Below, piece after piece: positions 1,261 to 25,045 of a stretch of 26,472 nt of DNA. Within the stretch, counting starts at the first letter, position 1; each line of letters opens with the position of its first letter. Origin of the DNA: a virus; IMG/VR virus record IMGVR_UViG_3300042565_003507, positions 1 through 26,472 of that record. One strand, written 5' to 3'. The position numbers were made by a program, and so were the translations under genes. Under the pieces are notes generated by a model. It had not been told where the DNA came from, ran no database searches, and was given only the letters and a program-made list of their open reading frames with translations.

Positions 1261-2123
1261 AATTGTTCGTCGAGATTTACCCCTAGTAGATCATAAATAT
1301 CGTCCTGTGAAACTCTTTCTAAAATAATTTGAGCCGGGTAAGTTGTACCATTATAGTGGGCGTAATTTAATAGAGGTGGTTTAGGAATTACGTTATTATT
1401 GAGAGATCCGTCGCCGAGGACAATATTACCGTCAGTCGAGACGCGCAGACCTACTCTTGCGGTTTTACATATATAGAAGAAACCATCAATGGTAGATGTT
1501 ATTGTTCGTTTTCCTTTCAAGGCTCTAGCAGGAGTATATTTAATATCGCCTACTAGCATAGTTCTTGATGGAGTATCTAGCTGAGCAATATTAGTTGCTA
1601 TATTACAACCATAAGGCTCTCCTACGTAAATTCCAGAAGACTCATAATATTTACCGGGGTTCCGTATACAGAATGATGTTGCAGCTCGAACTCTGTATGT
1701 ACCAGGAAGAAGTAAAATACTCCCATCATTAGATAAAATCTGATCAGAGCTCGCATATGAACTTGCTAATGAATTAGCCCCAATAAAATTAAAAGGAATA
1801 ATATAATTAATAGTATTTTTTATAATAACTTCTGATAAGTCAGAGGGTCTCATTTTATAATATAGTGCGATAGCTCCTTTAAGACCAGTGTTTACGTTCA
1901 GAGCGCTTGCTGCTATAAAAAAATTATCGTTTATTGAATTTAATAAATTGGTATTATTTTCAACCACGGGTCCGAATTCTGCATTATAATTTTTAAAAAT
2001 AATATCTTTAATTGAGATAGTTCTTATTCCTTCAGAAGTATCAATAATGATCTTACTATTATTGTCAATTATTTGTATTGACGGTATATTGCTTAAATTA
2101 ATTTCTGTAGTGTGATTACTCAT
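1257..2123 (-). CDS. Short tail-fibre-type protein lacking a glycine-rich tip (paralogue of the long adhesins)
   Basis: A 288-residue protein starting MSNHTTEINLSNIPS. Residues ~10-60 (NNSKIIIDTSEG...TISIKDIIF) resemble the N-terminus of the two long adhesins upstream (GDKIIVEKSDKQVYLVDY; TDKIIVQAPNDQTYITEF). The C-terminal half carries the module they share: LLPGTYRVRA, then DGFFYICKT, then an ending of type IILERVS. The protein stops where the long proteins continue into a Thr/Pro linker and glycine-rich tip. No signal peptide or membrane segment is seen. Its start overlaps the upstream gene's stop (TAATG), so the two are probably translationally coupled. It is likely a virion fibre or collar component. 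Homology to the neighbours is seen by eye; the exact role is inferred. Confidence 0.65.
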   Translation of the reverse strand: MSNHTTEINLSNIPSIQIIDNNSKIIIDTSEGIRTISIKDIIFKNYNAEFGPVVENNTNLLNSINDNFFIAASALNVNTGLKGAIALYYKMRPSDLSEVIIKNTINYIIPFNFIGANSLASSYASSDQILSNDGSILLLPGTYRVRAATSFCIRNPGKYYESSGIYVGEPYGCNIATNIAQLDTPSRTMLVGDIKYTPARALKGKRTITSTIDGFFYICKTARVGLRVSTDGNIVLGDGSLNNNVIPKPPLLNYAHYNGTTYPAQIILERVSQDDIYDLLGVNLDEQF

Positions 2124-4477: not shown

Positions 4478-4482
4478 AATAA

Positions 4483-4490
4483 TATTTATA
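4483..4490 (-). promoter_or_regulatory. T4-type late promoter box TATAAATA for the 784-aa adhesin
   Basis: The minus strand reads TATAAATA at 4490-4483, then TTATT, then the ATG at 4477. It is an exact match to the T4 gp55-dependent late -10 box. It lies immediately after the stop codon of the upstream 285-aa gene (4493-4491), so it fills the whole intergenic gap. Confidence 0.7.
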
Positions 4491-5348
4491 TTAACTATCA
4501 ATATATTGTTTTCTCATCTGACCGTATACGGAGATATTATCTTGTGGGTAATTATCATGGAAGCTAACAACTTTATTAGACTCAATTTTTACAAATGTAT
4601 CGAAGTTAATACCTATCCCGGCCTTTATAGTATACGGGGCACTATCCAGAGAAACTACGCCGTACCAACCGTTACGAAGAGTGGATAATTCATCGATAAA
4701 CAAATTTATAGGATTATAATAATTGGATATTCTGTTAAGATTAGTTATTTCGCCAAAACCTCTACCTATCTTTATATCCTTAGAGCTATTTTCAATAGAT
4801 ACAGGTGTATATTTTTGCAAATCTATTTTTTTAGTAAAAATATAACTGCCTATTTCTAATCTTCCTCCTGGTAAATTTGAAAAGGATTGTATATCTCCAG
4901 CCCATAGAGACCACGTTAAGTCTCCTGACATAATGGGAGTTTTAGACGGTACAGTCTCGCTATAACTTTCTAAAAATTTAGGATATACTAAATCAGTAAA
5001 TTGCTCTCGCCATGTATTATAAATTTGATATCGCCTACATGTAGCTGCTATTAAATATAACTCAGGAAAAAGGTAGCTATCTTCAACTGATATTGTGCCA
5101 ACATTAGTAGGCGATGATAATGTTTTTATAGATTTAATAGCATCAAATGTATTGTTTGCAAAATTTAGCCCTAATAAATCTAGATTCTCTCTTACACCAC
5201 CGATAGAGATATTTGAATTAGAAGGTACATTATCCCAGGACCATCCATCAACATAAAATAAAAACCCGGAAAAATAAAACGATTGATTAGGGTATAAATC
5301 GTTTATCTGCGGTATATTAACATCCTGTATGTAGTTATTCTGACTCAT
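4491..5348 (-). CDS. Short fibre-type structural protein sharing the WYG module
   Basis: A 285-residue protein starting MSQNNYIQDVNIPQI. Its C-terminal half (GDLTWSLWAGDIQS ... RNGWYGVVSLDSAPY ... FVKIESNKVVS) matches by eye the second module of the 784-aa adhesin (GDLRGYITEPKSY ... SPGWYGLIIDN ... FRVDLNGVIS). It has neither the GTYRVRA module nor a glycine-rich tip. It lies 3 bases after the 653-aa adhesin gene and just before the 784-aa one, so all are probably co-transcribed late genes. No signal peptide or membrane segment is seen. I infer a fibre or baseplate-associated component, perhaps a chaperone-like or spacer subunit. No specific family is recognised. Confidence 0.6.
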   Translation of the reverse strand: MSQNNYIQDVNIPQINDLYPNQSFYFSGFLFYVDGWSWDNVPSNSNISIGGVRENLDLLGLNFANNTFDAIKSIKTLSSPTNVGTISVEDSYLFPELYLIAATCRRYQIYNTWREQFTDLVYPKFLESYSETVPSKTPIMSGDLTWSLWAGDIQSFSNLPGGRLEIGSYIFTKKIDLQKYTPVSIENSSKDIKIGRGFGEITNLNRISNYYNPINLFIDELSTLRNGWYGVVSLDSAPYTIKAGIGINFDTFVKIESNKVVSFHDNYPQDNISVYGQMRKQYIDS

Positions 5349-5351
5349 ATT

Positions 5352-7313
5352 TTATTCTGCATCTCTTGGAAAGCTCCTATTTTCTCCCCATATAATTCTA
5401 ACAGCTCCATTACCCCCGTGTCGCGGAGATACATTTAACCCTATTGGTGCTCCCATGAATTCGCCCTTACCGCCGCCGCCGCCTCCAAAATTAAATCCAA
5501 ATGATTTTCTTTCATCGAGATCTATACCGCGGTGTAAGTTTCTCGAGCCAGTTCTACCCGCATTGCCGTTAGCTCTTACAGCAGGTAGATTTCCTCCTAT
5601 ACCATCTACACCTATACCATATAGACCGACACCACCACCGCCTCCGCCAGCGGTACCGGTTCCCTTGCCTCCGGAACCACCGCCGCCCCCTCCTCCATTA
5701 CTATCTTGACCATCACTATTCCAATTGCCCCCATTCCCCCCGGCGCTGGTATATCCCCCAGCGCCGCCTCCCCCGCCTCCAGCGGTAGCTCCTTCTGGAG
5801 TCGAGCCTCGCCCTCCGCGCCCGCCGTTTCCTCCCCCAATTCCTCTATTACGGTCTATGTCTGTGCTAGAAGATTTATTAGCGGGTTGAGCAACATTGCC
5901 AACTCTTCCTCCTCGACCTCCTGCAGCTCTTAATAGAACAAGGCCGTTTTGGTTATTCAACTTCACTACAGTATCCTCTCCATCAGTACCAGGAGTATCT
6001 TGGCCATCAATATTTACCCTATATGATGTTCCCCCGGCCCCTACATCTACCCATATTTTTGATCCCGGTGTGACTTTAATATTATTGCGCCATCTTAAGT
6101 CCCCGCCATTACCTCCATTCGGAATTAAATCATTTGTTGCGGCCCCGCCTCCTCCTGCTCCGACTGCTACTATATCTATAGATGTCACTCCATTGGGAAC
6201 GATCCATGTATGAGCTCCTACGCCAGTAAACAATCTTTCCCCTGATGGTTGTTTGCGCGGAGGAGGAGTCGGAGTAGTATTAATAGGCGGCCCTCCTGTT
6301 AAGATTGGCCTCAGCGTAGTAGTAGCAGTGGGTCTAGTAGTAGTAGTAGTTGTTCTATTTTGAGGCACCGTAGATAATACATCTACCTCTGGGCCTGTGA
6401 TTTCAAATTCAAAAGGATTATCTGTAATTTTTTCAAAGACAATTTGTAGAGGATTATATAGCGATGGAGGTAATTCACTCTCACTGTCCGGGCTAGGGTA
6501 TCCTACGATATAAGTGCCAGCAGTATGAGCTTTTAGCTTAATATTAGAGGTTTTACATATAGAAATAAACCCGTACATGTATGTAACCCCTGTCGCAGGC
6601 ATCTCATAATTTGATTTAAGATATGCTTCCCATTCTGCTTGAGTTCCACACCAGCTAGAGGGAGCAGCTGTGAGGGTTACTTCTGGCGCATAGTCAATAA
6701 TAGGGGTGCTAACTAATAGGGATTCGTTCGGTTCTGTATCTTTATATAGTTCTAAAGTCAGATAGCCTCTATCTCCATTCCCATTAGACGTACCATTTGT
6801 ATTAAAGCTGCCTGCGGGCCCAGCCAATGTAAAGGAGCCAGAGCATTCTACCTTATATATTCCAGGGGAAATATTTATACCTTCGTCAGATTGCGAATTT
6901 TCTAGCCCCGAAGCATCAACGCTGAATTGCGTTATATTGTCGATAGGGGGAGGAGCAATTGTACTGACTTGAAAATAATTTAGAGACAAATTAGTTGTAG
7001 CGATAGTTTGCTGACCGATGGTAAGACCGGTCTCGTTTGTGAATTCCTTAAGATATAAGCACAAAACTTCAGGAACTACAACAATATTAATCCTACTATC
7101 TACATATTCCGCTACATCCCCAGATATTTGCTGTGCCAATAATATATTACTCTCAAGAGTATTAGCTAGTTCAAAATTATTCCTATCAAATATAACATTG
7201 CCGAATTCTGTAATATATGTTTGATCATTAGGAGCTTGTACAATGATTTTATCAGTAGAATCAATAATTGAATTACTTTCAGGTAGAATTTGCCTTAAAT
7301 TAGCATCAGACAT
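5352..7313 (-). CDS. Long tail-fibre adhesin with Thr-rich linker and glycine-rich tip
   Basis: Start placed at the ATG at 7313 (MSDANLRQILPES, 653 aa); the in-frame TTG one codon upstream is less likely. Order of parts: N-terminal module (TDKIIVQAPNDQTYITEF, ~18-40); beta-rich module with SPGIYKVECSGSF, GFISICKT and LQIVFEKIT (~140-300); a Thr-rich linker (TTTTTTRPTATTTLRP, ~318-335); a Pro-rich spacer; then from ~360 a glycine-rich domain opening GAHTWIVPNGVTSIDIVAVGAGGGG. It ends GAVRIIWGENRSFP, like the 784-aa paralogue. Members of this group are tail-fibre tip adhesins in T4-like phages; receptor recognition is inferred. It is the first gene of the leftward adhesin run and has a CATAAATA box 6 bases before its ATG. 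Confidence 0.75.
   Translation of the reverse strand: MSDANLRQILPESNSIIDSTDKIIVQAPNDQTYITEFGNVIFDRNNFELANTLESNILLAQQISGDVAEYVDSRINIVVVPEVLCLYLKEFTNETGLTIGQQTIATTNLSLNYFQVSTIAPPPIDNITQFSVDASGLENSQSDEGINISPGIYKVECSGSFTLAGPAGSFNTNGTSNGNGDRGYLTLELYKDTEPNESLLVSTPIIDYAPEVTLTAAPSSWCGTQAEWEAYLKSNYEMPATGVTYMYGFISICKTSNIKLKAHTAGTYIVGYPSPDSESELPPSLYNPLQIVFEKITDNPFEFEITGPEVDVLSTVPQNRTTTTTTRPTATTTLRPILTGGPPINTTPTPPPRKQPSGERLFTGVGAHTWIVPNGVTSIDIVAVGAGGGGAATNDLIPNGGNGGDLRWRNNIKVTPGSKIWVDVGAGGTSYRVNIDGQDTPGTDGEDTVVKLNNQNGLVLLRAAGGRGGRVGNVAQPANKSSSTDIDRNRGIGGGNGGRGGRGSTPEGATAGGGGGGAGGYTSAGGNGGNWNSDGQDSNGGGGGGGSGGKGTGTAGGGGGGVGLYGIGVDGIGGNLPAVRANGNAGRTGSRNLHRGIDLDERKSFGFNFGGGGGGKGEFMGAPIGLNVSPRHGGNGAVRIIWGENRSFPRDAE
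6335..6350. repeat. TAG trinucleotide run in the Thr-rich linker codons
   Basis: Five TAG units plus one base on the plus strand, encoding consecutive Thr codons (ACT) on the minus strand. A related GTA/GTAGTAG cluster lies at 6316-6326. Slippage here would keep frame and alter Thr number. Confidence 0.7.
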
Positions 7314-7319
7314 CAAAAA

Positions 7320-7327
7320 TATTTATG
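7320..7327 (-). promoter_or_regulatory. Late promoter box CATAAATA for the 653-aa adhesin
   Basis: The minus strand reads CATAAATA, then TTTTTG, then the ATG at 7313. It is a one-mismatch form of the T4 late box and sits in the 56-base divergent gap to the glycosyltransferase cluster. Confidence 0.6.
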
Positions 7328-7369
7328 CAAAAAAGTTGATATATAAACTTAACATATTACTATATTTAT

Positions 7370-8212
7370 ATGGAGGATAAAATCGGCATCGCCTTTATAA
7401 CCTGTAATAGAGAAGAATTTTTAAAACAGTCTGTAGAATCATTTCAATCAGATATTAAGGAACTCGAAAATGCGTCTGTAATTATTGTAAACGATGGCAA
7501 ACCTTTACATAATAAATTTGATAATGTTACAAATAACAAGAAAAATTTAGGAGTAGGTAAAACCAAAAATATAGCTCTTAAAAAACTATATGAACAAGGC
7601 TGTGAGCATATTTTTATTATCGAAGACGATATTATTAAGAGAGTGGGATGTAATATTAATGTTTTTAAAGAATATATTAGATATAGTAAAACTACAGGTA
7701 TTCAACACTTTATGTTTGGCTATCATGGTCCTGCAAATAAAGGAAATATTTCAAAAGGATCACCACTTCCTCGATTAGTTTTTGAATATTCCGATGATGT
7801 AAGAGTGTTATTAAATCTCCATTGTGTGGGAGCATTTTGTTATTACTCCGCGAAATGCCTTAATGCGGTAGGCTTTATGGATGAAGAATATAATAATGCG
7901 TTCGAGCATGTTGATCATTCATATATGATAGCGAAGGCGGATATGATTCCTGGATATTGGTGGTGGCCGGATATTGACAAGAGTTATGAAATTTTAGATG
8001 AAATACAATGTAGCGAGGAATCCTCCACTATTAGACCAAGAAAAGATTGGAAGGAAAATATATTGAAGGGGGCCGAGTATTTTTATAAAAAGCACGGATA
8101 TAGACCGGCTTGGGATAATTATGTCCCAGATCAAAGCGATCAAAAAGTAAAGGAAAAACTTATCAATATTTTCGAAAAATATAGTGTTGATTTGAATTTA
8201 TATAGAGATTAA
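7370..8212 (+). CDS. GT2/GT-A type glycosyltransferase
   Basis: A 280-residue protein with a GT-A N-terminus: IGIAFITCNREEFLKQSVES at ~5-24, a VIIVNDG strand/loop at ~38-44, NLGVGKTKNIAL at ~59-70, and an acidic metal/nucleotide-sugar site IIEDD at 83-87. The second half has HCVGAFCYYSA and a FMDEEYNNAFEHVDHSYM segment, the usual acceptor-side acidic motif of GT2 enzymes. It should transfer a sugar from a nucleotide-sugar donor; donor and acceptor are unknown. It is cytoplasmic, with no membrane helix. It opens the rightward sugar-modification cluster and is divergent from the adhesin genes. Confidence 0.85.
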   Translation: MEDKIGIAFITCNREEFLKQSVESFQSDIKELENASVIIVNDGKPLHNKFDNVTNNKKNLGVGKTKNIALKKLYEQGCEHIFIIEDDIIKRVGCNINVFKEYIRYSKTTGIQHFMFGYHGPANKGNISKGSPLPRLVFEYSDDVRVLLNLHCVGAFCYYSAKCLNAVGFMDEEYNNAFEHVDHSYMIAKADMIPGYWWWPDIDKSYEILDEIQCSEESSTIRPRKDWKENILKGAEYFYKKHGYRPAWDNYVPDQSDQKVKEKLINIFEKYSVDLNLYRD

Positions 8213-8221
8213 ATAACCGAT

Positions 8222-8527
8222 ATGGAAGAATTACCTTGGACCTGGACACTGAACAAAGCATATGATAATGATATAGTTGACGCGACTATTCATTCTTGTG
8301 ATAATAAAACTCAATTTGCTGTTAAGGGAATTCCCGGGCAAATTGTAGATGGGTTCGTAGCGCTACTTACGAGTTCCTATAAGTGGGGTTGTACGGAAGT
8401 ATCTATTAATGAGGATATTATAGGTGAATTGAATGAGTTACGAGAGCAAAAGATTCGCGATGCTCAAGCAATTGGAGGGCTCAAGGGCGCTATTACTAGA
8501 CTCAAAAACAAGTATGGCGAAGAATGA
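8222..8527 (+). CDS. Unknown 101-aa protein within the glycosyltransferase operon
   Basis: MEELPWTWTLNKAYDN... is not recognised. It looks like a compact alpha/beta protein with a likely C-terminal helix (IIGELNELREQKIRDAQAIGGLKG) and no signal peptide, membrane segment or metal motif. It begins 9 bases after the first glycosyltransferase. Its stop overlaps the next glycosyltransferase start (ATGA), which argues for real translation and coupling. The previous stop plus following bases form TTAAATA six bases before this ATG, which may be chance. No function proposed. Confidence 0.65.
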   Translation: MEELPWTWTLNKAYDNDIVDATIHSCDNKTQFAVKGIPGQIVDGFVALLTSSYKWGCTEVSINEDIIGELNELREQKIRDAQAIGGLKGAITRLKNKYGEE

Positions 8528-9195
8528 CGATTGATGCCATAGTCTTAAGTAAGACCGGTAGTTTAAATCACTACGGTATATCCTGTAGAACTATTAATAG
8601 TCTACAGGCATCGCGTGAGTGGGGCGGTAAAACTATTGTTGTCGAATCTATGACCGAGTCTCACTTGCAAGAAAATGGGTTTATTTACAATAATTGTGAT
8701 ATAATATTTCCAGAAATGGAATTTAATTATAACAAATTTTTAAATATCGGGATAAAGGCAAGCACGGCGGATTGGGTACTATTATGTAATAACGATATAT
8801 ATTTTTATAAAAACTGGCTTGTAGAAATGAAGAAAGCTATTTTTGATTATAAAGATATTAAATCGTTTAGCCCTATTAGCCCGACATGGCATCTACATCA
8901 AGGCCTTGAGAGCGGGTGTATTGTGGGATATGAAGTATCTAAGCATATATGCGGGTGGTGTATTCTTGTACGTAAAGATGTCGTTGAGTCATGTGATCTT
9001 TTTGATGAGAATTTTAAATTTTGGTACCAGGATAATGACTATTCGCTTACTCTTAAAAAGAACAATATTAAACACGGGCTGGTGACCAGCTCGCGAGTTG
9101 AGCATTATATAAGTAAGTCTTATGACTTATTGGGCGATACTGAAATAGACATGACTCACGGACAGCATCAAAGATTTATAGCAAAATGGAATTAG
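8524..9195 (+). CDS. GT2-family glycosyltransferase (rhamnosyltransferase-like)
   Basis: A 223-residue protein. The segment FLNIGIKASTADWVLLCNND at ~72-91 is the classical GT2 pattern: helix with N.gi..a.g..vllLNnD, where NND replaces DxD. The later segment FDENFKFWYQDNDYSLTLKK matches the C-terminal F.ed.D...R motif of rhamnosyltransferase-type GT2 enzymes. It presumably acts in the cytoplasm on a nucleotide-activated sugar. It overlaps its neighbours at both ends: ATGA with the 101-aa gene upstream and 10 bases with the next glycosyltransferase downstream. The operon is therefore tightly packed. Confidence 0.85.
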   Translation: MTIDAIVLSKTGSLNHYGISCRTINSLQASREWGGKTIVVESMTESHLQENGFIYNNCDIIFPEMEFNYNKFLNIGIKASTADWVLLCNNDIYFYKNWLVEMKKAIFDYKDIKSFSPISPTWHLHQGLESGCIVGYEVSKHICGWCILVRKDVVESCDLFDENFKFWYQDNDYSLTLKKNNIKHGLVTSSRVEHYISKSYDLLGDTEIDMTHGQHQRFIAKWN

Positions 9196-9827
9196 GCACT
9201 TGTATTAAGCGCACAACATGCGATAATAAAAGATTCAATATAGTTGTTCCGACTTATAATCATAAACATAAGTTAGAAGTAATTATAAATTGCTTTTTAT
9301 CTCAAACTGTTAGTGATTGGATGCTAACAATAGTGTCAGACGGCCCCCCGGATATAGAATATAATACTATTATAGAAAGATACTCTGATATAGATAATAT
9401 ATCTTTCCACTATTTACATAAACGATATAATGACTGGGGACATACCCCTCGCGAATATGGGTTATATCAGGGTGATAGTGAGTGGACCGTAATGACGGGG
9501 TATGATAATTATTATGTACCTACATTTATCGAGGAGTTTTCAAGGGTTAGTCAAAATATAGATAACTGTGAATTTATATTCTGCGACCTAATTCATAATC
9601 ATTTAAGAGATGGAATATCTTATAATAAGTATATGGATTCCAAGCTCGAGGTAGATCATATAGATATAGGCAATTTTGCAACTAAAACATCGACGTTGAG
9701 GGAAGTTGGATTCCCGTTTAGATCATTCGCAGCTGATTGGGAATTAGTAAAGGTTTTAAAGTCTGTAATCTCGGAAAAGGGAGGAAATATTGTTAAATTA
9801 AATCAAACGCTTTACGTTCACAATTAA
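9186..9827 (+). CDS. GT2-family glycosyltransferase with degenerate DxD
   Basis: A 213-residue protein with FNIVVPTYNHKHKLEVIINC at ~17-36 and LTIVSDGPPD at ~47-56, both typical of the GT-A nucleotide-binding half of family 2. Where most relatives have a D(D/N)D the sequence is TGYDNYYVP at ~104-112, so the metal site is altered but keeps an Asp-Asn pair. The start overlaps the previous gene by 10 bases and the stop abuts the next ATG (TAAATG). A short protein for GT2, probably a single domain. Donor and acceptor unknown. Confidence 0.82.
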   Translation: MELGTCIKRTTCDNKRFNIVVPTYNHKHKLEVIINCFLSQTVSDWMLTIVSDGPPDIEYNTIIERYSDIDNISFHYLHKRYNDWGHTPREYGLYQGDSEWTVMTGYDNYYVPTFIEEFSRVSQNIDNCEFIFCDLIHNHLRDGISYNKYMDSKLEVDHIDIGNFATKTSTLREVGFPFRSFAADWELVKVLKSVISEKGGNIVKLNQTLYVHN

Positions 9828-10559
9828 ATGAATATTGACTGCTATACTATTACATATAATGAGGAAAAAATAATAGACTTTTTCCTTGACCATTATTCCA
9901 AATTTTGTAGAAATATAACGGTATTTGATAACTGCTCAACTGATAGCACCGCAGATATAGTAAAGCGATATAAAAGCGATACTATTCATATCGAACAATA
10001 TAATAGTGAAAATACCCTAAACGATAGCATTTATTTACAGATAAAAAATAACTGCTGGAAAAATTCTGATGCAGATTACGTAATTATAGTAGACTGCGAC
10101 GAATTGCTATACCATCCAAGTATAGTCTCGTTTTTCGAGACTACAAGCCAGCCTGTTTATATGCCCTACGGTTATGATATGGTGAGCGATAGCTTTCCAG
10201 AGAAAGGTAAAAGTATTATTGAGCAGATTACCGAAGGAGTTAATTCGCCTAATTATTCGAAGATGTGTGTATTCTCTCCTAAGTTCATTAGCGATATAAA
10301 TTATACCCTCGGGTGCCATAGAGCAACCCCGCGCGATATTCACGGGGTAAATACATCACCGTATAGGGACGACGAATTAAAATTATTACATTATAAAAAT
10401 ATATCATTTGAATATCGATATAATAAGCATGTTGAATATAATCAAAGGTTAAGTGATTTTAATAAAAAAGGGGGATCGGGAATACATTACTCGTATGAAA
10501 AGGAAAAACAATTTGACGAATTTTGCACTATGCTTAATAGCAAATTTAAAATTATATAA
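9828..10559 (+). CDS. Glycosyltransferase-like protein (GT2, DUF23/GT92-like N-terminus)
   Basis: A 243-residue protein. The N-terminus CYTITYNEEKIIDFFLDHY (5-23) followed by ITVFDNCSTDSTADIVKRY (30-48) is the pattern of the 'nEe..i..wl.hy......vyDn.StD.T' glycosyltransferase group. A clear metal-binding strand VIIVDCDELLYHP lies at ~85-97. The C-terminal part has a conserved-looking HRATPR and an LLHYKNISFEYRYNKHVEY segment. It begins directly after the previous stop. It is probably a soluble sugar transferase; substrate unknown. Confidence 0.8.
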   Translation: MNIDCYTITYNEEKIIDFFLDHYSKFCRNITVFDNCSTDSTADIVKRYKSDTIHIEQYNSENTLNDSIYLQIKNNCWKNSDADYVIIVDCDELLYHPSIVSFFETTSQPVYMPYGYDMVSDSFPEKGKSIIEQITEGVNSPNYSKMCVFSPKFISDINYTLGCHRATPRDIHGVNTSPYRDDELKLLHYKNISFEYRYNKHVEYNQRLSDFNKKGGSGIHYSYEKEKQFDEFCTMLNSKFKII

Positions 10560-10565
10560 TATATT

Positions 10566-11327
10566 ATGGAAAGAGAATTTAATATATACGGAGTACAATA
10601 CAACTTTACCTCCAGTTCAAATGATAGTGTTAAATGTTTAGATTGGTTCCTGCCGCTGTTTAAAGAGGGGGGATGGGAGTCCGATACATTCAAAATTTTT
10701 GAATGTGTGAAAGATAGGGATAAAGTAGCAGTAGATATTGGGGCGTGGATTGGTCCGACGTCAATATGGCTATCGAATAATTTTAAGAATGTTATTTCGA
10801 TTGAACCCGATCCTATAGCTTATAAGGCGCTAAAAGATAACTTAAAAAATTCTAACTGCAATAACGCTATTACAGTTAATAGGCCTTGTTACAATGAAGA
10901 GAAAGAAATAGTTTTTGGGGTTAATAGTTTTGATAAAAACTTAGCCCGTGAGGGGTTAGGGTCATCTACAAGTCAAATAAAAACGACAACAGACGACTCC
11001 CAGGATTGTATTCAAACGGCAATAACGCTTAAATACTTAACCAATTTTAGTGTTTTTAGTGAAATTTGTTTTGTGAAGGTGGATATAGAAGGCGGAGAAG
11101 AATATATTTTGCTGGATTTATTTGAATACGCTCAAAAAAATAGATGGAAACTGTATATATCGTTTCACTATAATTGGTGGAGAGAAAAAAATATTTTAAA
11201 ATATAAAAAATTATTTAATACCCCTGCTCTCAATAATATTAGAGTATATAACAAAAATCTAACAGGTAATGAATTAATTTATTATATAATAAATAACCCG
11301 TTTTGTTCAGTTTACTTTGAATTTTAA
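10566..11327 (+). CDS. FkbM-family SAM-dependent methyltransferase
   Basis: A 253-residue protein. The SAM-binding motif VAVDIGAWIGPTSIWLS lies at ~54-70, motif II VISIEPDP at ~76-83, and the FkbM-type acidic post-motif CFVKVDIEGGEEYILLDL at ~165-185. The FkbM family O-methylates sugars and natural products, and such genes are frequent in glycan loci. In this cluster a role capping or modifying the glycan made by the neighbouring transferases is likely but inferred. It has a 6-base gap upstream and abuts the next ATG downstream (TAAATG), so it belongs to the same operon. Confidence 0.88.
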   Translation: MEREFNIYGVQYNFTSSSNDSVKCLDWFLPLFKEGGWESDTFKIFECVKDRDKVAVDIGAWIGPTSIWLSNNFKNVISIEPDPIAYKALKDNLKNSNCNNAITVNRPCYNEEKEIVFGVNSFDKNLAREGLGSSTSQIKTTTDDSQDCIQTAITLKYLTNFSVFSEICFVKVDIEGGEEYILLDLFEYAQKNRWKLYISFHYNWWREKNILKYKKLFNTPALNNIRVYNKNLTGNELIYYIINNPFCSVYFEF

Positions 11328-11993
11328 ATGAATGAAAAAATAACGGTTACCCTTACTCACTGCCGACGGCCAGAATTACTCGATCGAACAGTAGACTCTT
11401 TTTTAAAGACAAATCAATACCCTATTGATGAATTTTTAATAATTGACGATTCTGGAGATCCTCAATATATCCACTCTATTGCAGACAAATATAAAGATGT
11501 AGCTACAATTATAATAAATGAGAAAAATTTAGGACAGCGGCAATCTCTGGATATTTTATTTAATATTTGTAAAAATGAATATATTTTTCATCTCGAAGAA
11601 GATTGGTTGTTCGATGGTAGCTCTACAACGTACATAAATGATTCGTTGATAATTTTAAAAAACAGGCCCGATGTACATCAAGTACACATAAGACATCAAG
11701 ATGACGATCCTCACCCCACAGTAGGGGAAGTCAATTATATAGAAAATATAGGGTGTAGTTTTCTGGATCCTAATTTTAGAGAAGTTTGGAATGGCTTTAG
11801 TTTTAATCCGGGCTTAAGAAGAAAATCAGATATTAAAAAAATGTTTTCAGAGGGGTTGGTAAAGTTCGAAGACGAGCTGCAAGCTTCTTTGCATACGAGA
11901 ATATTTAATTACAAGGCGGTTCGATTAGAGAATACCGCGTGCCACCATATAGGGTATGGCGTGTCTACCCAGACGGGCAGGAGGGGATTATAA
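11328..11993 (+). CDS. GT2-family glycosyltransferase
   Basis: A 221-residue protein. GT-A features: ITVTLTHCRRPELLDRTVDS (5-24), FLIIDDSGD (36-44), NEKNLGQRQSLDILF (64-78), and the metal/nucleotide site FHLEEDWLF (88-96) with EED in the DxD position. Further on, the basic segment LRRKSDIKK and the acidic FEDELQ fit the acceptor half. It starts immediately after the methyltransferase stop. Fifth glycosyltransferase of the cluster; sugar unknown. Confidence 0.85.
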   Translation: MNEKITVTLTHCRRPELLDRTVDSFLKTNQYPIDEFLIIDDSGDPQYIHSIADKYKDVATIIINEKNLGQRQSLDILFNICKNEYIFHLEEDWLFDGSSTTYINDSLIILKNRPDVHQVHIRHQDDDPHPTVGEVNYIENIGCSFLDPNFREVWNGFSFNPGLRRKSDIKKMFSEGLVKFEDELQASLHTRIFNYKAVRLENTACHHIGYGVSTQTGRRGL

Positions 11994-11997
11994 ATTT

Positions 11998-12672
11998 ATG
12001 CATAATATTATATTAGGGGAGACGTGCTTGCTATCCCATCAACTTAGGCGACTTGATATATTAAATGGGCCGAAAGGTTTATTTGAAAATATGCTGATAA
12101 ATCTGGATGGCGTGCAGTTTATTATTAAGGATGATTTATCGCAAGTTATTGCGAGAGATCATTTATCTTATGAATACTATACGTATTACCCGGATTATGG
12201 TGTAGGTGACTATAAGTGGATAAATAAAAAATATACCTTAGATAATGATAATATTTTTAGCTGGCCAGTTTGTTGCTTTTTTCACTATGATAAATTTACT
12301 ATATATCAAATAGAATCTTTAAAAAGAAAAATTGATAGATTAAAAAGTAATTTAGAAGATAGTGTCAATGTAAATTTTTTTTATTATTATAAAGGATCCA
12401 TTAAATATAATATAGATCTTTTTTTACAAAAAGCTAAAAATTTTATAGAATTCGTATCAAAGAAATATAATAAAGTATTTACAATGACAGTTATAACTAA
12501 AAATTATTCGAAAGATTCATATATATTGCGCAGCTCCCTCGGAAGTATAAATTGTATTGATTTTTTATCACCTCACTCCTGGGACGAGCCTAATGATAAC
12601 TGGAATGGCTCGAGTGACGATGATTTATTTGATAAATTTGCCGAATATTATAAAACAATCACTACAAAATAA
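11998..12672 (+). CDS. DUF1796-like putative cysteine peptidase-fold protein
   Basis: I use the ATG at 11998 (224 aa), 4 bases after the previous stop and with GAGGGG upstream, rather than the in-frame codon at 11956 inside the preceding gene. The N-terminus IILGETCLLSHQLRRLDIL resembles the 'sLG..C..a.qLrr' opening of DUF1796, a putative papain-like cysteine peptidase family often met in glycan loci. Cys10 would be the nucleophile. A later FFHYDKFT could hold the His/Asp. The usual PFDW motif appears as GLFENML, so it is divergent. Last gene of the cluster, AT-rich in its second half. Assignment is by motif memory and moderate. Confidence 0.55.
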   Translation: MHNIILGETCLLSHQLRRLDILNGPKGLFENMLINLDGVQFIIKDDLSQVIARDHLSYEYYTYYPDYGVGDYKWINKKYTLDNDNIFSWPVCCFFHYDKFTIYQIESLKRKIDRLKSNLEDSVNVNFFYYYKGSIKYNIDLFLQKAKNFIEFVSKKYNKVFTMTVITKNYSKDSYILRSSLGSINCIDFLSPHSWDEPNDNWNGSSDDDLFDKFAEYYKTITTK

Positions 12673-19713: not shown

Positions 19714-20895
19714 ATGGCGTCGTGTAGCATAACCCCGATATCTGCTTTTCAATCTACCAATCTTAGCAATAGGATTAATACCTATAATAGATTGGCAGAT
19801 AGAGTTGTTAGATCATTAGGCGCGCCTTTAATTCAGGTTGAGCTACATCAGGATCAAATATTTGAAAATATTTCTATAGCTATAGAGATGTTTACAAAAT
19901 TTGCAGGCTATACCGCAGAATATCTAGTATTTGATTCAGATTTATATGAAAAAAATAAAGGATTAAGATTAGATTATCTTTTTACTCTTTCTAACCCTAC
20001 TCTGACCTTAGAGCAAAAAGTAGATCATAAAATACAATCGCCGGAAGCTTCTTTCTATATAACAGAGCCAAAAACTATGTATATAGCAACTTCGGGAATT
20101 GCTAGTTCATACTTTACAAGTATAAATCATTTGAGTTCTGTTTTCGAAAATGGGGTGTTCCAGAATCAAATTTTTGATCAAACCACATATAATGAAATAT
20201 TAACTTCATTTTCATCGAGCAATACCTTAAGCACAATTCCAGTATCATCTTACTTTATTGAGTCTTTTATTAATCAACCGACAGTTAAGGGAGAGACTAT
20301 TGTCAGACAGTCTGACTACAAGATGGCTAATATGTTTGATTACGATATTTTAGACTATCGTAAGGTCATGGCGGTCTCAGAATTTGAAGAAGGATCTACG
20401 ACTGGCATTAATACTCTCTTTACAATTGAGCAAACCTTAGCGCAACAGACATACTTCTCATACGCAATGGGTAATTATGGCTTCGATCTTGTCTCTTGGT
20501 ATACTTTAAAAGAATGGCTTGAAATGAGAGAGAAACTTCTCGCGATTCGTAGAACATACACGTTTAATGATCGTACTCAAATACTTCAAATGTATCCAGA
20601 GCCAACGGCAAATTCAAGATTTTATGGAGTGTTATCTTGCTATGTAGAGAAACCTATCAGAGATGTAATAAAAGAGCCTTGGGTATATCAATATACTTTA
20701 GCATTATGTAAAATTACATTAGCTCAAATTAGGGGCAAATATGGGTCTCTAACACTTTTTGGCGGACAAACTTTTAATTCAACTGATTTAATGACACAAG
20801 GAACGGCGGAAAAGGCTGAGCTCGAGAAGAAGCTATATGAAGGTAATTCCCCAGGATTCGGGGACGCGGATCCTGCTATGTTCTTTGTCGGTTGA
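19714..20895 (+). CDS. Virion structural protein of unknown T4 counterpart
   Basis: A 393-residue protein MASCSITPISAFQSTNLSNR.... The middle includes FDYDILDYRKVMAVSEFEEG and the C-terminal third has EPWVYQYTLALCKITLAQIRGKYG, followed by an acidic tail of type AEKAELEKKLYEGNSPGFGD. This resembles a structural protein repeatedly found in marine T4-like phages; I cannot tie it to a numbered T4 gene. No signal peptide or transmembrane helix is seen. Its position between portal and head-completion genes, under its own late box, suggests a head or neck component. Its stop precedes the next ATG by only 5 bases. Confidence 0.65.
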   Translation: MASCSITPISAFQSTNLSNRINTYNRLADRVVRSLGAPLIQVELHQDQIFENISIAIEMFTKFAGYTAEYLVFDSDLYEKNKGLRLDYLFTLSNPTLTLEQKVDHKIQSPEASFYITEPKTMYIATSGIASSYFTSINHLSSVFENGVFQNQIFDQTTYNEILTSFSSSNTLSTIPVSSYFIESFINQPTVKGETIVRQSDYKMANMFDYDILDYRKVMAVSEFEEGSTTGINTLFTIEQTLAQQTYFSYAMGNYGFDLVSWYTLKEWLEMREKLLAIRRTYTFNDRTQILQMYPEPTANSRFYGVLSCYVEKPIRDVIKEPWVYQYTLALCKITLAQIRGKYGSLTLFGGQTFNSTDLMTQGTAEKAELEKKLYEGNSPGFGDADPAMFFVG

Positions 20896-20900
20896 ATCAT

Positions 20901-21278
20901 ATGAAAACATTTAAACAATATTACGGGAATCAGCGACTTATACAAGAGGCAGCAATTGATAAACTTCAAACAGCGCTTGATATAGTTGGATTCGAACCGA
21001 CAGTGGGTACGGTAGCAGATGCTACAAACGCAGTAATATCTGGTTTAAGAGCTGCCCTTGCAAAAGAAAAAGATTTAAAAAAGAAACACTTAATCAATAT
21101 GGGAATTTCAGCAACTTCACTTATACCGTTTGCTGATGTTATAAAAATATTAAAACTTCGCAAATTAGGCAAAAAGCCTACAAGGCTAGCTATATCGGGG
21201 GCAAGAGCCATAAAGTCATCAGCAGAGACTAAAAAAGCTCAAGGGAATAGATTTAGTGAAAAAGAAACAAACATATAA
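20901..21278 (+). CDS. Candidate internal head protein with capsid-targeting peptide
   Basis: Start chosen at the ATG at 20901 (125 aa) rather than the in-frame TTG at 20892. The N-terminus MKTFKQYYGNQRLIQEA closely resembles the capsid-targeting sequence of T4 internal proteins (MKTYQEFIAEA). It contains IQE|A at residues 14-17, matching the gp21 cleavage rule (I/L)-x-E|(A/G/S). Cleavage would leave about 109 residues. The mature part has two hydrophobic, Gly/Ala-rich stretches (LDIVGFEPTVGTVADATNAV; NMGISATSLIPFADVIKIL) and a strongly basic tail. T4 internal proteins are packaged with DNA and some are injected as anti-restriction factors. Packaging is inferred; the function of the mature part is unknown. 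Confidence 0.65.
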   Translation: MKTFKQYYGNQRLIQEAAIDKLQTALDIVGFEPTVGTVADATNAVISGLRAALAKEKDLKKKHLINMGISATSLIPFADVIKILKLRKLGKKPTRLAISGARAIKSSAETKKAQGNRFSEKETNI

Positions 21279-21699
21279 ACAGGGTGTTTTTAAGCCTAAA
21301 AATATTCTAAAGTTTGAGGGCACAGCAGCGGTTTATCGCTCCTCTTATGAACTTAAGTTTTTTAGATGGTGTGATGAAAATCCTAATGTTGTAAGATGGG
21401 GGAGCGAAAATATAGTTATACCTTATATTAATCCAAACAATAATAAATTTTCGAGATACTTTGTAGATAACTTTATTGTTTTAAAAGAAGGAGACAAGAC
21501 AAAAAGATATTTAATTGAAATAAAACCCGCTAAACATACAAAACCTCCTGACCCTAAGCGCTATCGCAATAAGAATAATCTAATCTATGAACAAGCCATG
21601 TTCAATCAAAATCAGGCTAAGTGGAGAGCGGCGAACGAATGGTGTAATAAACACGGCGCAGAATTTATTATATTAACAGAAAAAGAATTAAATATATAA
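21256..21699 (+). CDS. 4: Head completion protein gp4 (nuclease-fold)
   Basis: A 147-residue protein starting with GTG at 21256; AAGGGA ten bases upstream is one of the few clear Shine-Dalgarno-like sites here. YKQGVFKPKN, then YRSSYELKFFRWCDENPNVV, then RWGSENIVIPYINPNNNKFS, RYFVDNFIVL and KRYLIEIKPAKHTKPP follow T4 gp4 nearly segment by segment (T4: 150 aa). The VD and EIK residues are the PD-(D/E)xK-type catalytic pattern of this TnsA-like family. gp4 acts after packaging to finish the head before tail joining. It overlaps the preceding gene by 23 bases. Confidence 0.93.
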   Translation: MKKKQTYKQGVFKPKNILKFEGTAAVYRSSYELKFFRWCDENPNVVRWGSENIVIPYINPNNNKFSRYFVDNFIVLKEGDKTKRYLIEIKPAKHTKPPDPKRYRNKNNLIYEQAMFNQNQAKWRAANEWCNKHGAEFIILTEKELNI

Positions 21700-21751: not shown

Positions 21752-22429
21752 ATGGGATTCCGATTAATTACTGACGAGGCGGCCTCATCTCTCGATGAGT
21801 TCGAATATATATTTGAGGAAAAAGATAGAAACCAGCCTAGGTCTCTCTTCATACAGGGGCCATATATGCTCGCCGAAGCTGTAAATAGAAATAAGAGACG
21901 GTACCCTATTCACGAAATGAGATCGGAAGTTGATAGGTATACTCGCGAAATGATCGGCAAGAAGAGAGCTATGGGAGAGCTTAATCACCCCTCATCTGCT
22001 GACGTAGATTTAGAAAGAGCATGCCATCTAGTGGAGTACCTTAAAGAGGAAAAAGAAGGGGATAGATACGTATTCGTTGGAAGGTCTAAAGTTTTAACTA
22101 CACCTTGCGGTAAGATCGTCCACTCTCTCGTTAATGATGGGGTGACAGTAGGTATGTCTTCAAGAGCACTTGGCCAGCTCACTGAAAAGACTTCTTATAA
22201 TGAAGTTCAAAATATGAGGCTCGTGGCTATTGACTGCGTTGCTGATCCTTCTTTTAGCGAAGCATTTGTAAATGGTATACTAGAATCAAAAGAATGGGTG
22301 TTGAAGGACGACGGTCACTTTGAAGAGCATTACGATGCTTTTGAAAAATCTTTCTTAAACATACCTTCTAAAGAAAAACAACAATATTTAACAGAACAAA
22401 TTATCAAATTTCTGAAAAATATTCACTAA
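21752..22429 (+). CDS. 21: Prohead core protease gp21
   Basis: A 225-residue protein. FIQGPYMLAEAVNRNKRRYP, GELNHPSSADVDL with the catalytic His at residue 79, and VTVGMSSRALG with the catalytic Ser at about residue 136 identify the T4 prohead protease (peptidase family U9/S78-like). LVAIDCVADPSFSEAFV follows as expected. The enzyme cleaves scaffold, capsid and internal proteins after (I/L)-x-E during head maturation, then degrades itself. Length is close to T4 gp21 (212 aa). It is in the canonical order before scaffold and capsid genes. Confidence 0.94.
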   Translation: MGFRLITDEAASSLDEFEYIFEEKDRNQPRSLFIQGPYMLAEAVNRNKRRYPIHEMRSEVDRYTREMIGKKRAMGELNHPSSADVDLERACHLVEYLKEEKEGDRYVFVGRSKVLTTPCGKIVHSLVNDGVTVGMSSRALGQLTEKTSYNEVQNMRLVAIDCVADPSFSEAFVNGILESKEWVLKDDGHFEEHYDAFEKSFLNIPSKEKQQYLTEQIIKFLKNIH

Positions 22430-22447: not shown

Positions 22448-22606
22448 ATGAATAAGACTATTCAAAGCAAGTGCTTAAAAGGATTTGTTGCTTCGATTCT
22501 CGAAGAAGATTACAAATTCTCTAAACTTTTTTTAGAAAAGGCCGTTCAGCTTAAAATAAAAGAACGGATTAAACAAGCAAATCAAAATAAAATTTTTAAC
22601 CCATGA
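22448..22606 (+). CDS. Small 52-aa protein between protease and scaffold genes
   Basis: MNKTIQSKCLKGFVASILEE... ends at a TGA whose bases overlap the gp22 ATG (ATGA). It follows a perfect late box by 6 bases, so it is very likely translated. It appears mostly helical, with a Lys-rich C-terminal half (FLEKAVQLKIKERIKQANQN). T4 has small prohead-core proteins (gp67, gp68) next to gp21, and this could be a functional counterpart, but no similarity can be asserted from sequence alone. Confidence 0.7.
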   Translation: MNKTIQSKCLKGFVASILEEDYKFSKLFLEKAVQLKIKERIKQANQNKIFNP

Positions 22607-23520
22607 GCAAACAAAAATCACAATCGACCGGTAACATAATTACCGTGTTAAAAGAAGCGACTAACGGTCTTCTTAATGAAGAGTCTCTTCAAGCTATTGA
22701 ATCTGCCTTTAATGAAGAGGTCGAGAAGCGCGCTACTCTTCGTGAGCAAGCAGCTTTAGAGCTTCAAGATCAAGAGTATTCTGAAAAGCTTATTCAAGTT
22801 TTAGAGGCTATCGATCGCGATAAAACAAGAAAGCTCGTTAAGGTAGTTGAAGCTATCGATAAGAATAACGCTAAGAAGCTCTCGCGAGTGGTTAATAAGT
22901 ATAAGAAGACTCTTCATACCGACGCTAGAACATTTAAAGAGTCTGTCGTTAAGCACATTAGTGATTATTTAGAAGTTTATTTAGAGGAATTAATACCTCA
23001 ACAATCTATTAATGAAGCGGTTAAAAATAAGAAAGCCTATACAGTGCTCGCTGGGTTGAGGAATCAGCTTTCTATCGGTTCTTCGCTTCTTGATGAATCT
23101 GTTCGCTCTGCTGTTATTGACGGGAAGCAACAAATCGATGCTCTTGAAGCTCAGCTTGACGAGAAAAATAAGCAAATCGAAACATTAACAGAGCATTTTA
23201 GAGCGGTTGCTGCTAACTTACTGCTCGAACAGAAGAGCGCTGGTCTTCCTTCCAAGAAGAAAGAATATCTTAAGAAAGTTCTTGGAAGCAGATCCCCTGA
23301 ATTTATTAATGAAAACTTTGAGTACACTCTTAAACTTTACGATAAGAAAGAAAGAGAGCAACTTGAAACTCTTAAGGAAGAAGCCATGGAAACTCGTAGA
23401 GTTAAAGTAAAGGCTCCTTCTATTGAAGATATGATAATTAATGAAAAGGTAGATAGACAACCCGTTCGTCAGCAAAATATAAACGATATCTATCTTGAGC
23501 AATTAAATAAATATATGTAA
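22603..23520 (+). CDS. 22: Prohead core scaffold protein gp22
   Basis: A 305-residue, highly charged, helix-rich protein. An internal near-repeat, VLEAIDRDKTRKLVKVVEAI then DKNNAKKLSRVVNKYKKTL, sits at about 66-105, and long coiled-coil-like stretches follow (LEAQLDEKNKQIETLTEHFR). The C-terminal ASIEDMI-type segment (PSIEDMIINEKVDRQ) and the position between gp21 and gp23 fit gp22. It assembles the inner core of the prohead and is degraded by gp21. T4 gp22 is 269 residues. Coupled to the 52-aa gene by ATGA overlap. Confidence 0.88.
   Translation: MSKQKSQSTGNIITVLKEATNGLLNEESLQAIESAFNEEVEKRATLREQAALELQDQEYSEKLIQVLEAIDRDKTRKLVKVVEAIDKNNAKKLSRVVNKYKKTLHTDARTFKESVVKHISDYLEVYLEELIPQQSINEAVKNKKAYTVLAGLRNQLSIGSSLLDESVRSAVIDGKQQIDALEAQLDEKNKQIETLTEHFRAVAANLLLEQKSAGLPSKKKEYLKKVLGSRSPEFINENFEYTLKLYDKKEREQLETLKEEAMETRRVKVKAPSIEDMIINEKVDRQPVRQQNINDIYLEQLNKYM
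23502..23512 (+). promoter_or_regulatory. Possible late promoter region for gp23
   Basis: ATTAAATAAAT lies within the last codons of gp22. It would give gp23 a leader of roughly 60-70 bases that contains the hairpin at 23541-23560. Partial match only. Confidence 0.3.
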
Positions 23521-23584: not shown

Positions 23585-25045
23585 ATGAATAACTACATCG
23601 ATCAAAATAGAGCGAAGACCCTTCTTGAGAAGTGGGCCCCAGTGCTTAACTATCAGTCTAAGTCTATTGCTCCTATTGAAGATGAGCGTACTCGTGTTAA
23701 CACAGCTATCATGCTTGAAAACCAAGAGAAGTGGTGCCGTGACCCTGAAGGTGGTCTCCTTATGGAGAACAACTATTCTGGTAACGCTGGTGCTTTTGGC
23801 GGAGGTTCCTCTGTTGGGGGAATTTATAGCCCTTCTACCGGGAAAGTCACAAGCAACGATGGCTATGCTACTGGCGATGCTCGCCTTCCAAAGATTCTTA
23901 TTCCGATGATTCGTCGTACTTTCCCTGAATTAATAAGTAACGAGATCGTTGGCGTTCAGCCAATGAGCGGCCCTGTTGGCCTTGCGTTTGCGTTGCGCTA
24001 CAAGTATAATTCCGCCGGTCTTGGTACTGGTGGTGTTGATGGTGGCCAATCCTCGCCTGGCACCCATACTGCTGTCGGAAACGCCAGTGGTAGGGAACTC
24101 GGCTACCAATTCATCGATACTCGCTTCACAGGTACCTCGTCTAGCCGACTTTCCGGTGGTAGTGCTTGGACTTTCGCAGCTCAGGATCAAGGCGTTGCCG
24201 AGATTCTTAAGAACTGGGAAATTAACAACAACATCCCTCAAGTTGACATTTCGTTCGAGAAGACCGCCGTTGAAGCTGGTACCAGACGTCTTGGCGCTCG
24301 GTGGTCCGTTGAACTTGAGCAGGACCTTAAGAACATGAATGGTATCGACGTTGATGCTGAAATCACTAACGCTATGGCGTATGAGATTCAAGCGGAAATC
24401 GATCGTGAGATGATTGTTCGCATGATCCAAACCTGTCTTAACACCGCATTAGGCGTTGGGTACTCCGTTTGGTCTCCTGCTTCTGCCGACGGTCGCTGGT
24501 TAGTTGAACGAAACAGAGACTTCTATCAAAGACTTATTATCGAAGCGAACCGCATTGCTGTGCGTAACCGTCGTGGAGCTGCAAACTTTATTGTTTGTAC
24601 TCCCCGGGTTGCCGCTATTCTCGAAATGCTTCCGGAATTCCAGTGGGTCCCGGTCCAAGGCAACGTGAATACTCAGCCTGTTGGTATTGCTAAGGTAGGT
24701 AATCTTGGTGGACGTTTCAACGTTTATCGTGACACTCGTACGGAAGTTCAAAATACTGGTAAATATGGAGACAATGGATATACCGGACATACCTCGGGCG
24801 TGGAATACGCGCTCCTTGGTTATAAGGGTCCTGAGTTCTACGATACCGGTATTATCTACTGCCCGTACATTCCTGTCATGGTTCAACGTACGATTGGCCC
24901 GAATGATTTCGCGCCTCGTGTTGGCTTGCTGACACGATATGGTGTGGTCGATAACATCTTCGGAGCTGATCTGTATTACCACATTATTATTGTTCAGGGA
25001 CTTGGTGCGGCGTTTACGCCGGCTTCGCAATCCGTGTATTTCTAA
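23585..25045 (+). CDS. 23: Major capsid protein gp23
   Basis: A 486-residue HK97-fold capsid protein. IAPIEDERTRVNTAIMLENQ near the N-terminus; IRRTFPELISNEIVGVQPMS and GPVGLAFALRYKY at about 108-140; LGARWSVELEQDLKNMNGID and AEITNAMAYEIQAEIDREMI at about 235-275; and an ending of type DLYYHIIIVQGL identify T4-like gp23 (T4: 521 aa). The N-terminal ~61 residues are probably removed by gp21 at LLME|N. The gene is visibly richer in G+C and in codons such as GGT, CGT, GCC and AAC than its neighbours, fitting very high expression. A leader hairpin precedes it and a strong terminator follows. Confidence 0.96.
   Translation: MNNYIDQNRAKTLLEKWAPVLNYQSKSIAPIEDERTRVNTAIMLENQEKWCRDPEGGLLMENNYSGNAGAFGGGSSVGGIYSPSTGKVTSNDGYATGDARLPKILIPMIRRTFPELISNEIVGVQPMSGPVGLAFALRYKYNSAGLGTGGVDGGQSSPGTHTAVGNASGRELGYQFIDTRFTGTSSSRLSGGSAWTFAAQDQGVAEILKNWEINNNIPQVDISFEKTAVEAGTRRLGARWSVELEQDLKNMNGIDVDAEITNAMAYEIQAEIDREMIVRMIQTCLNTALGVGYSVWSPASADGRWLVERNRDFYQRLIIEANRIAVRNRRGAANFIVCTPRVAAILEMLPEFQWVPVQGNVNTQPVGIAKVGNLGGRFNVYRDTRTEVQNTGKYGDNGYTGHTSGVEYALLGYKGPEFYDTGIIYCPYIPVMVQRTIGPNDFAPRVGLLTRYGVVDNIFGADLYYHIIIVQGLGAAFTPASQSVYF

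Follow-up and report, generated by a model that had tools for sequence, protein, structure and literature searches.

A small basic protein with a putative T4-type capsid-targeting leader and gp21-type cleavage site in the head-gene cluster of an uncultured aquatic T4-like phage

The window analysed here is a whole viral contig of 26,472 nucleotides (26.5 kb) from an uncultured, aquatic T4-like myovirus that has no near relative in culture (gp23 identity at most about 34% to the best phage records among the matches listed). The gene under study lies in the head-gene cluster, in a cargo slot bounded by a neck gene on one side and a head-closure gene of gp4 type on the other, and is followed, in order, by the gp4-type gene, which overlaps it by 23 nt, and the genes for gp21, a gp67-like protein, a gp22-like scaffold, and gp23 (Table 1). 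As an earlier first-pass annotation had stated, the gene for gp21 starts 474 bases after the last base of the studied ORF, with the gp4-type gene in between. The gp67-like ORF has no Pfam or PHROG match above cut-off, and N-terminal comparison predicts a pro-arm site GGLLME/N in gp23 (here and below, a slash marks the cut). The late-promoter-like sequence TATAAATA occurs six times in the window, overall not above chance expectation; two copies, to which we give no weight, lie directly 5′ of gp21 and of the gp67-like ORF. Elsewhere in the window we noted, by eye, ORFs resembling tail-fibre genes, with spacers rich in T/P and repeated C-termini rich in Gly (2123-7316, minus), a series of glycosyltransferase-like ORFs (7370-12672, plus), and an LRR-like repeat protein at the contig end (25782-26471, minus).

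The studied ORF comprises an ATG start and 125 codons plus a stop (translation MKTFKQYYGNQRLIQEAAIDKLQTALDIVGFEPTVGTVADATNAVISGLRAALAKEKDLKKKHLINMGISATSLIPFADVIKILKLRKLGKKPTRLAISGARAIKSSAETKKAQGNRFSEKETNI); an in-frame TTG is present 9 bases 5′ of the ATG (20892), overlapping the stop of the neck gene. That the ORF is real, as first proposed, is borne out by codon-position conservation: comparison with the homologue in the same slot of contig L044 over 75 ungapped codons reveals 19, 8, and 43 differences at codon positions 1, 2, and 3, respectively, with 29 synonymous and 16 non-synonymous codons. The N-terminus reads MKTFKQYYGNQRLIQEAA, exactly as annotated.

Table 1. Coordinates of the studied gene, its parts, and its neighbours in the window
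Feature	Coordinates	Strand	Basis
Neck / head-tail adaptor gene, upstream of cargo slot	19714..20895	+	PHROG 211 1e-22
Studied gene, 125-aa precursor (leader plus helical basic module)	20901..21278	+	ORF; homologues; codon-position bias
Putative capsid-targeting leader, residues 1-16 MKTFKQYYGNQRLIQE	20901..20948	+	T4 IPI/IPII/IPIII leader match
Putative gp21 cleavage site LIQE/A, between residues 16 and 17	20937..20951	+	T4 L/I-X-E motif
Mature module, residues 17-125, predicted all-helical	20949..21275	+	Alignments, low-confidence AF2, composition
gp4-type head-closure / TnsA-like nuclease gene	21256..21699	+	PHROG 218 5e-48; Pfam PF08722
gp21 prohead protease (Peptidase_S77), presumed processing enzyme	21752..22429	+	Pfam PF03420 3e-28; PHROG 207 1.5e-52
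gp67-like small core protein	22448..22606	+	Position, resemblance; conserved in related loci
gp22-like scaffold	22603..23520	+	Position/synteny; strong family match absent
gp23 major capsid protein	23585..25045	+	Pfam PF07068 5e-89

The internal proteins (IPs) of T4 carry a capsid-targeting sequence of 10-19 residues, in which genetics shows that residues 4 and 7 govern targeting, and T4 gp21 cuts after L/I-X-E (PMC9026906). The N-terminal segment of the studied protein has aromatic residues at both governing positions (F4 and Y7), and places its LIQE/A after residue 16, within the range of the T4 propeptides. Position 10 is N rather than E, and the leader therefore fits the longer IPI form and not the strict 10-residue rule. 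Specifically, the T4 leader closest to MKTFKQYYGNQRLIQE/A is that of IPI, MKTFKEFTSTTTPVSTITE/A, with T4 cleavage points in the T4 record placed by the L/I-X-E rule; the first-pass annotation is supported in its reading of a T4-type leader and site, but had cited the IPII/IPIII leader MKTYQEFIAE/A as the counterpart.

Further N-termini of this type, for which the first-pass annotation had proposed a scan, were found. The pattern M.[TS][FY].[EQ][FY][ILFY], which is the IPII/III leader loosened to similar residues, matches 9 of 855 N-termini in the window and five related contigs, as against 7 of 193,139 internal positions, an enrichment of about 290-fold; in T4, as a positive control, ipII and ipIII are its sole matches in a set of 252 ORFs. 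Another type of leader, M..DSxLIFExY, is found at 9 N-termini and 1 internal position of the same contig set, the pattern having been derived from the data on which this enrichment was counted. A PhiXE[AGS] site is present in 11 of 24 homologue leaders, compared with 2.1 in shuffled leaders, the 24 being related sequences and not independent ones. In particular, the site is kept as IIME/A in L044 and as LLTE/G in L032 and L060, the start of the L060 protein being uncertain because no in-frame ATG precedes LLTE/G. The S77 prohead protease that would process such sites is encoded by the window phage itself and in L060, and of 15 further records that carry the module it was detected in 4, three of which exceed 85 kb; none was found in most of the larger module-bearing fragments (e.g. 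of 105, 86, and 74 kb), perhaps owing to fragmentation.

Removal of the leader would leave a mature protein of 109 aa with a pI of 10.2 and a charge of +10, which is small and basic like the T4 IPs and agrees with the basic tail described at the outset. The two hydrophobic stretches described there are likewise present, at residues 63-86 and 35-53, but the Kyte-Doolittle maximum of 1.28 over 19 residues is below that of a classical membrane span. Structure prediction and profile search were both suggested by the first-pass annotation: two AF2 models are all-helical at low confidence (pLDDT 53 and 58), and no family match above cut-off was obtained in Pfam, PHROGs, or NCBIfam. The suggested likeness to polymorphic-toxin linkers yielded no Pfam match at E<=1 for the window or at E<=10 for relatives. 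Profile matches in the PDB to designed Pizza proteins look like composition or repeat artefacts. A compact module is outlined by the positions that are invariant in the alignments (Q, LD, G, P, D, N, IS ... IS, P, D, K, K).

Searches with one sequence revealed no homologues of the studied protein in viral contigs or in phage records, of which 50,697 were covered by tblastn at E<=1. Searches opened with a two-row alignment of the window and L032 sequences recovered, successively, 21, 42, and 45 loci in IMG/VR, on about 45 viral contigs, many of them fragments. The same kind of scan found the module in none of 84,980 prokaryote genomes. One further candidate, L043, matched weakly (HMM E=0.018), spans a different ORF on the minus strand, and was treated as chance.

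The family is modular. In the same slot of L044, MDKESELIWEQYNKAKNDQIIME/A serves as leader before a body that shares 68% identity with that of the window: leaders swap, and site and body are kept. The first-pass annotation had held that homologues lacking the N-terminal motif would count against its proposal, and in part they do: some lack the leader or the site, about half carrying a leader of another type and L049, L050, and L058 having the T4-type leader MQTFKEYY but no PhiXE site. The body is found alone or in fusions: C-terminal to a cytidylyltransferase-like domain (L055), in a 'GGAGGHMAHPFD' protein with a KxDG motif that looks ligase-like and no Pfam match (L063/L064), and inside a protein with a domain resembling phage lysozyme at its end (L062; PHROG endolysin 5e-10, and a Pfam match of 2e-4 that narrowly misses the cut-off). 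T4-type leaders of the lineage also precede domains of RelA/SpoT-like (Pfam 2e-5, below the cut-off), zinc/aspartyl-protease-like (4e-7), HiPIP-like (weak), and DUF6267 type, and a tRNA-ligase-phosphodiesterase-like domain (4e-4, under cut-off) follows the related leader MMLFKEFF; in all these cases, similarity in Pfam or PHROG names a likeness and not a function. Several homologues adjoin tail-tube or baseplate genes instead of the head cluster, which may point to another route into the virion. The cargo slot itself is variable: it encodes a 239-aa MKTFKEFF...VSES protein in L003, and no cargo ORF was found there in the close relatives L002, L005, and L006.

In L003, the neck-gp4 and gp4-gp21 slots are filled by a pair of similar proteins, each about 239 aa or longer (5271-5990 and about 6420-7340), with leaders MKTFKEFF...VSES and MLTFNNFY...INES; the slot protein that was scanned has no Pfam or PHROG match. 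In the close relative L004, a protein resembling, by eye, a homing endonuclease occupies the cargo slot (5013-5993). In a related phage, L056 (773-1489, minus), a RelA/SpoT-like domain stands behind the leader MFTFLEYYQASE, in a protein that also matches PHROG head morphogenesis (5e-6). A 'HxPxxPGILK...NYHC' domain attached to the module in L045, L048, L119, and L129 also ends gp080 of Flavobacterium phage immuto_2-6A (NC_055915 113756-113946), in which many ORFs start MKKSQLRxIIKE. In L009 (7125-8309), L017 (5874-7100), and L021 (7165-8097), the gp67-like segment is the C-terminus of long proteins with Gly-zipper-like blocks, several of which are preceded by xxE/G sites, possibly a core polyprotein releasing membrane-active peptides. 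Copies of the gp23 N-terminal arm, the region just after the gp21 site, are present in L125 (1447-1995), L083 (G022 58293-58538, minus), S-CREM2 gp160, S-SCSM1 gp97, and Syn19_180; the L125 copy ends a module protein (55% over 31 aa, E=3e-5), and S-CREM2 gp160 and S-SCSM1 gp97 are both reported as virion proteins, which suggests a second capsid-docking motif. A regular expression for the arm matched only gp23 itself in the contigs, the copies having come from BLAST.

Cyanophage virion proteomes permit a comparison of leader and virion membership. The T4 rule applied here, an aromatic residue at 4 and 7 and Glu at 10, takes its positions from T4 genetics. In S-CREM2, whose published virion proteome comprises 52 of 219 proteins (PMC10665884 Table 3), the rule picks four proteins: the SAM hydrolase gp6, the kinase gp14, gp136, and the cytidylyltransferase gp154. 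Each of these is in the virion proteome (Fisher p=0.0029, with part of the N-termini inspected before the rule was fixed). In S-SCSM1, the one rule match in 64 CDS surveyed is the NMNAT gp91 (MKSFLQFLKE/A), annotated as a virion protein. The virion proteome of S-SM1 contains the T4-GC190 cytidylyltransferase (PMC3037559), the Syn19 orthologue of which starts MKKFSAFLNE/A. Only the T4 spacing with Glu 10 separated virion proteins from others in S-CREM2; a loose pattern, with aromatic residues spaced by three close to the N-terminus, failed to do so (p=0.13). As the authors of the cyanophage study warn, virion proteins without a structural role may have been carried over (PMC10665884). In the open literature searched, 'capsid targeting' and 'cyanophage' were co-mentioned only via a reference-list entry. 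S-CREM2 gp12 (OR473000 7704-10313, minus), a virion-detected nuclease annotated as Cas9/Csn1, has a T4-type leader, RFASFMAE/A, at about residues 18-25, slightly inside the annotated start, which may be misplaced.

Because the site is kept in L044 despite the exchange of the leader, because the leader type recurs within the lineage, and because, in two cyanophages with published virion proteomes, the proteins with T4-rule leaders are found among those of the virion, the sequence comparisons support the assignment of residues 1-16 as a putative capsid-targeting leader of T4 internal-protein type with a gp21-type site. The explanation we consider likely is that the studied gene encodes a packaged internal head protein. 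Packaging in the head by the T4-type leader and, for the window member, trimming by gp21 are each likely; injection into the host cell is plausible by analogy with T4. Specifically, the motif suggests that the late-made protein would enter the prohead core with gp22 and gp67 by means of its MKTFKQYY... leader; gp21 would then cut after LIQE16, at the conserved site, so that a basic helical module of 109 residues remains in the head among the DNA; and the mature protein, like T4 IPs and Alt, would exit with the DNA through the tail. More speculatively, its two Gly/Pro-kinked hydrophobic helices and basic C-terminal helix might associate with the inner membrane or with DNA, and there help DNA and cargo to enter, or blunt a defence.

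The same pair of kinked helices could instead belong to a membrane-penetrating or tail-lumen ejection peptide: a helical hairpin, housed in the head or the tail tube, that breaches the inner membrane to let DNA in and is not a cytoplasmic effector. This reading, which we hold to be unlikely, draws on the neighbours of some homologues, which we read as tail-tube-like for L049/L050 and baseplate-like for L051/L053, and on the Gly-zipper blocks with xxE/G sites fused to gp67 in L009/L017/L021; it is weakened by the modest hydropathy, by enzyme-like fusions that suggest an adaptor and not a pore, and by the location of the window copy in the head cluster.

Slightly less probable is that the protein is a structural or assembly component of the head, a divergent gp68-like core protein that gp21 processes, that stays behind, and that does nothing in the host. 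Its gene shares with T4 genes 67 and 68 a position between gp20 and gp21, core proteins also have PhiXE sites and are expected gp21 substrates, and T4 IPIII also affects head assembly (PMC9026906). Yet no similarity to gp67 or gp68 was seen, a separate gp67-like gene exists at 22448, and the studied protein is basic, whereas the start of T4 gp68, as read, is acidic. The gene is also accessory, no cargo ORF having been found in its slot in L002, L005, and L006, and other genes being there in L003 and L004; homologues are located far from the head cluster, and the body is fused to enzyme-like domains. It does not match T4 gp68 as a core gene, located between gp20 and gp21, that is conserved and essential. 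An ordinary accessory protein acting in the producing cell, its leader and site resembling those of T4 by chance or through the commonness of such amphipathic N-termini in these phages, is similarly improbable, for although leaders vary among homologues, sites are absent in some, and short amphipathic helices start many ORFs of these phages, the pattern is enriched at N-termini over internal positions, the S-CREM2 virion comparison speaks against it, and L044 keeps the site after a leader swap.

The packaged-head-protein reading can be extended, tentatively and with more doubt than belief, to the family as a whole. The module might be a general delivery or anchoring unit for effectors of aquatic T4-like phages that are packaged in the head and injected, a set not recognised until now, with interchangeable T4-type leaders and gp21-type sites ahead of or beside the cargo, helping RelA/SpoT-, cytidylyltransferase-, ligase-, protease-, RNA-repair-, and lysozyme-like domains to cross or sit at the inner membrane.

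Among known systems, the pre-toxin linker PT-TG (PF14449) has paired hydrophobic helices with Gly/Pro turns, beside the effector domains of polymorphic toxins; the studied module differs in its phage head context and in having no Pfam match. The T4 internal proteins are the textbook head-packaged anti-defence effectors: IPI* inhibits a type IV restriction enzyme, and IPI-III are poorly conserved even among T4 relatives. The studied system shares with IPI-III aromatic residues at 4 and 7, a PhiXE/A site of gp21 type, a small basic body, an encoded gp21, and variable cargo. It differs in that the window gene lies between neck and gp4 and not in an ip region, in that members of the lineage swap leaders and fuse the body to enzyme-like domains, and in that the mature body is unrelated by the searches done (the module profile gave no match to the T4 sequence examined). 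The cyanophage proteins S-CREM2 gp154, gp6, and gp14 (cytidylyltransferase/NMNAT, SAM hydrolase, and APH/ChoK-like kinase), S-SCSM1 gp91, and T4-GC190 have T4-rule N-termini (MKNFSSFLTE/A etc.) on non-core virion proteins of T4-like phages; they differ in being enzymes and in serving phages of cyanobacterial hosts, and the module family was not found in the Syn19 and S-CREM2 sequence examined. Should the leader rule apply to aquatic T4-like phages, their packaged cargo could be read directly from genome sequence, and the rule would bear on whether virion SAM hydrolases, kinases, and NMNATs in cyanophage proteomics are cargo or contamination; the present case adds a module family that accompanies such cargo and has no match in the libraries searched.
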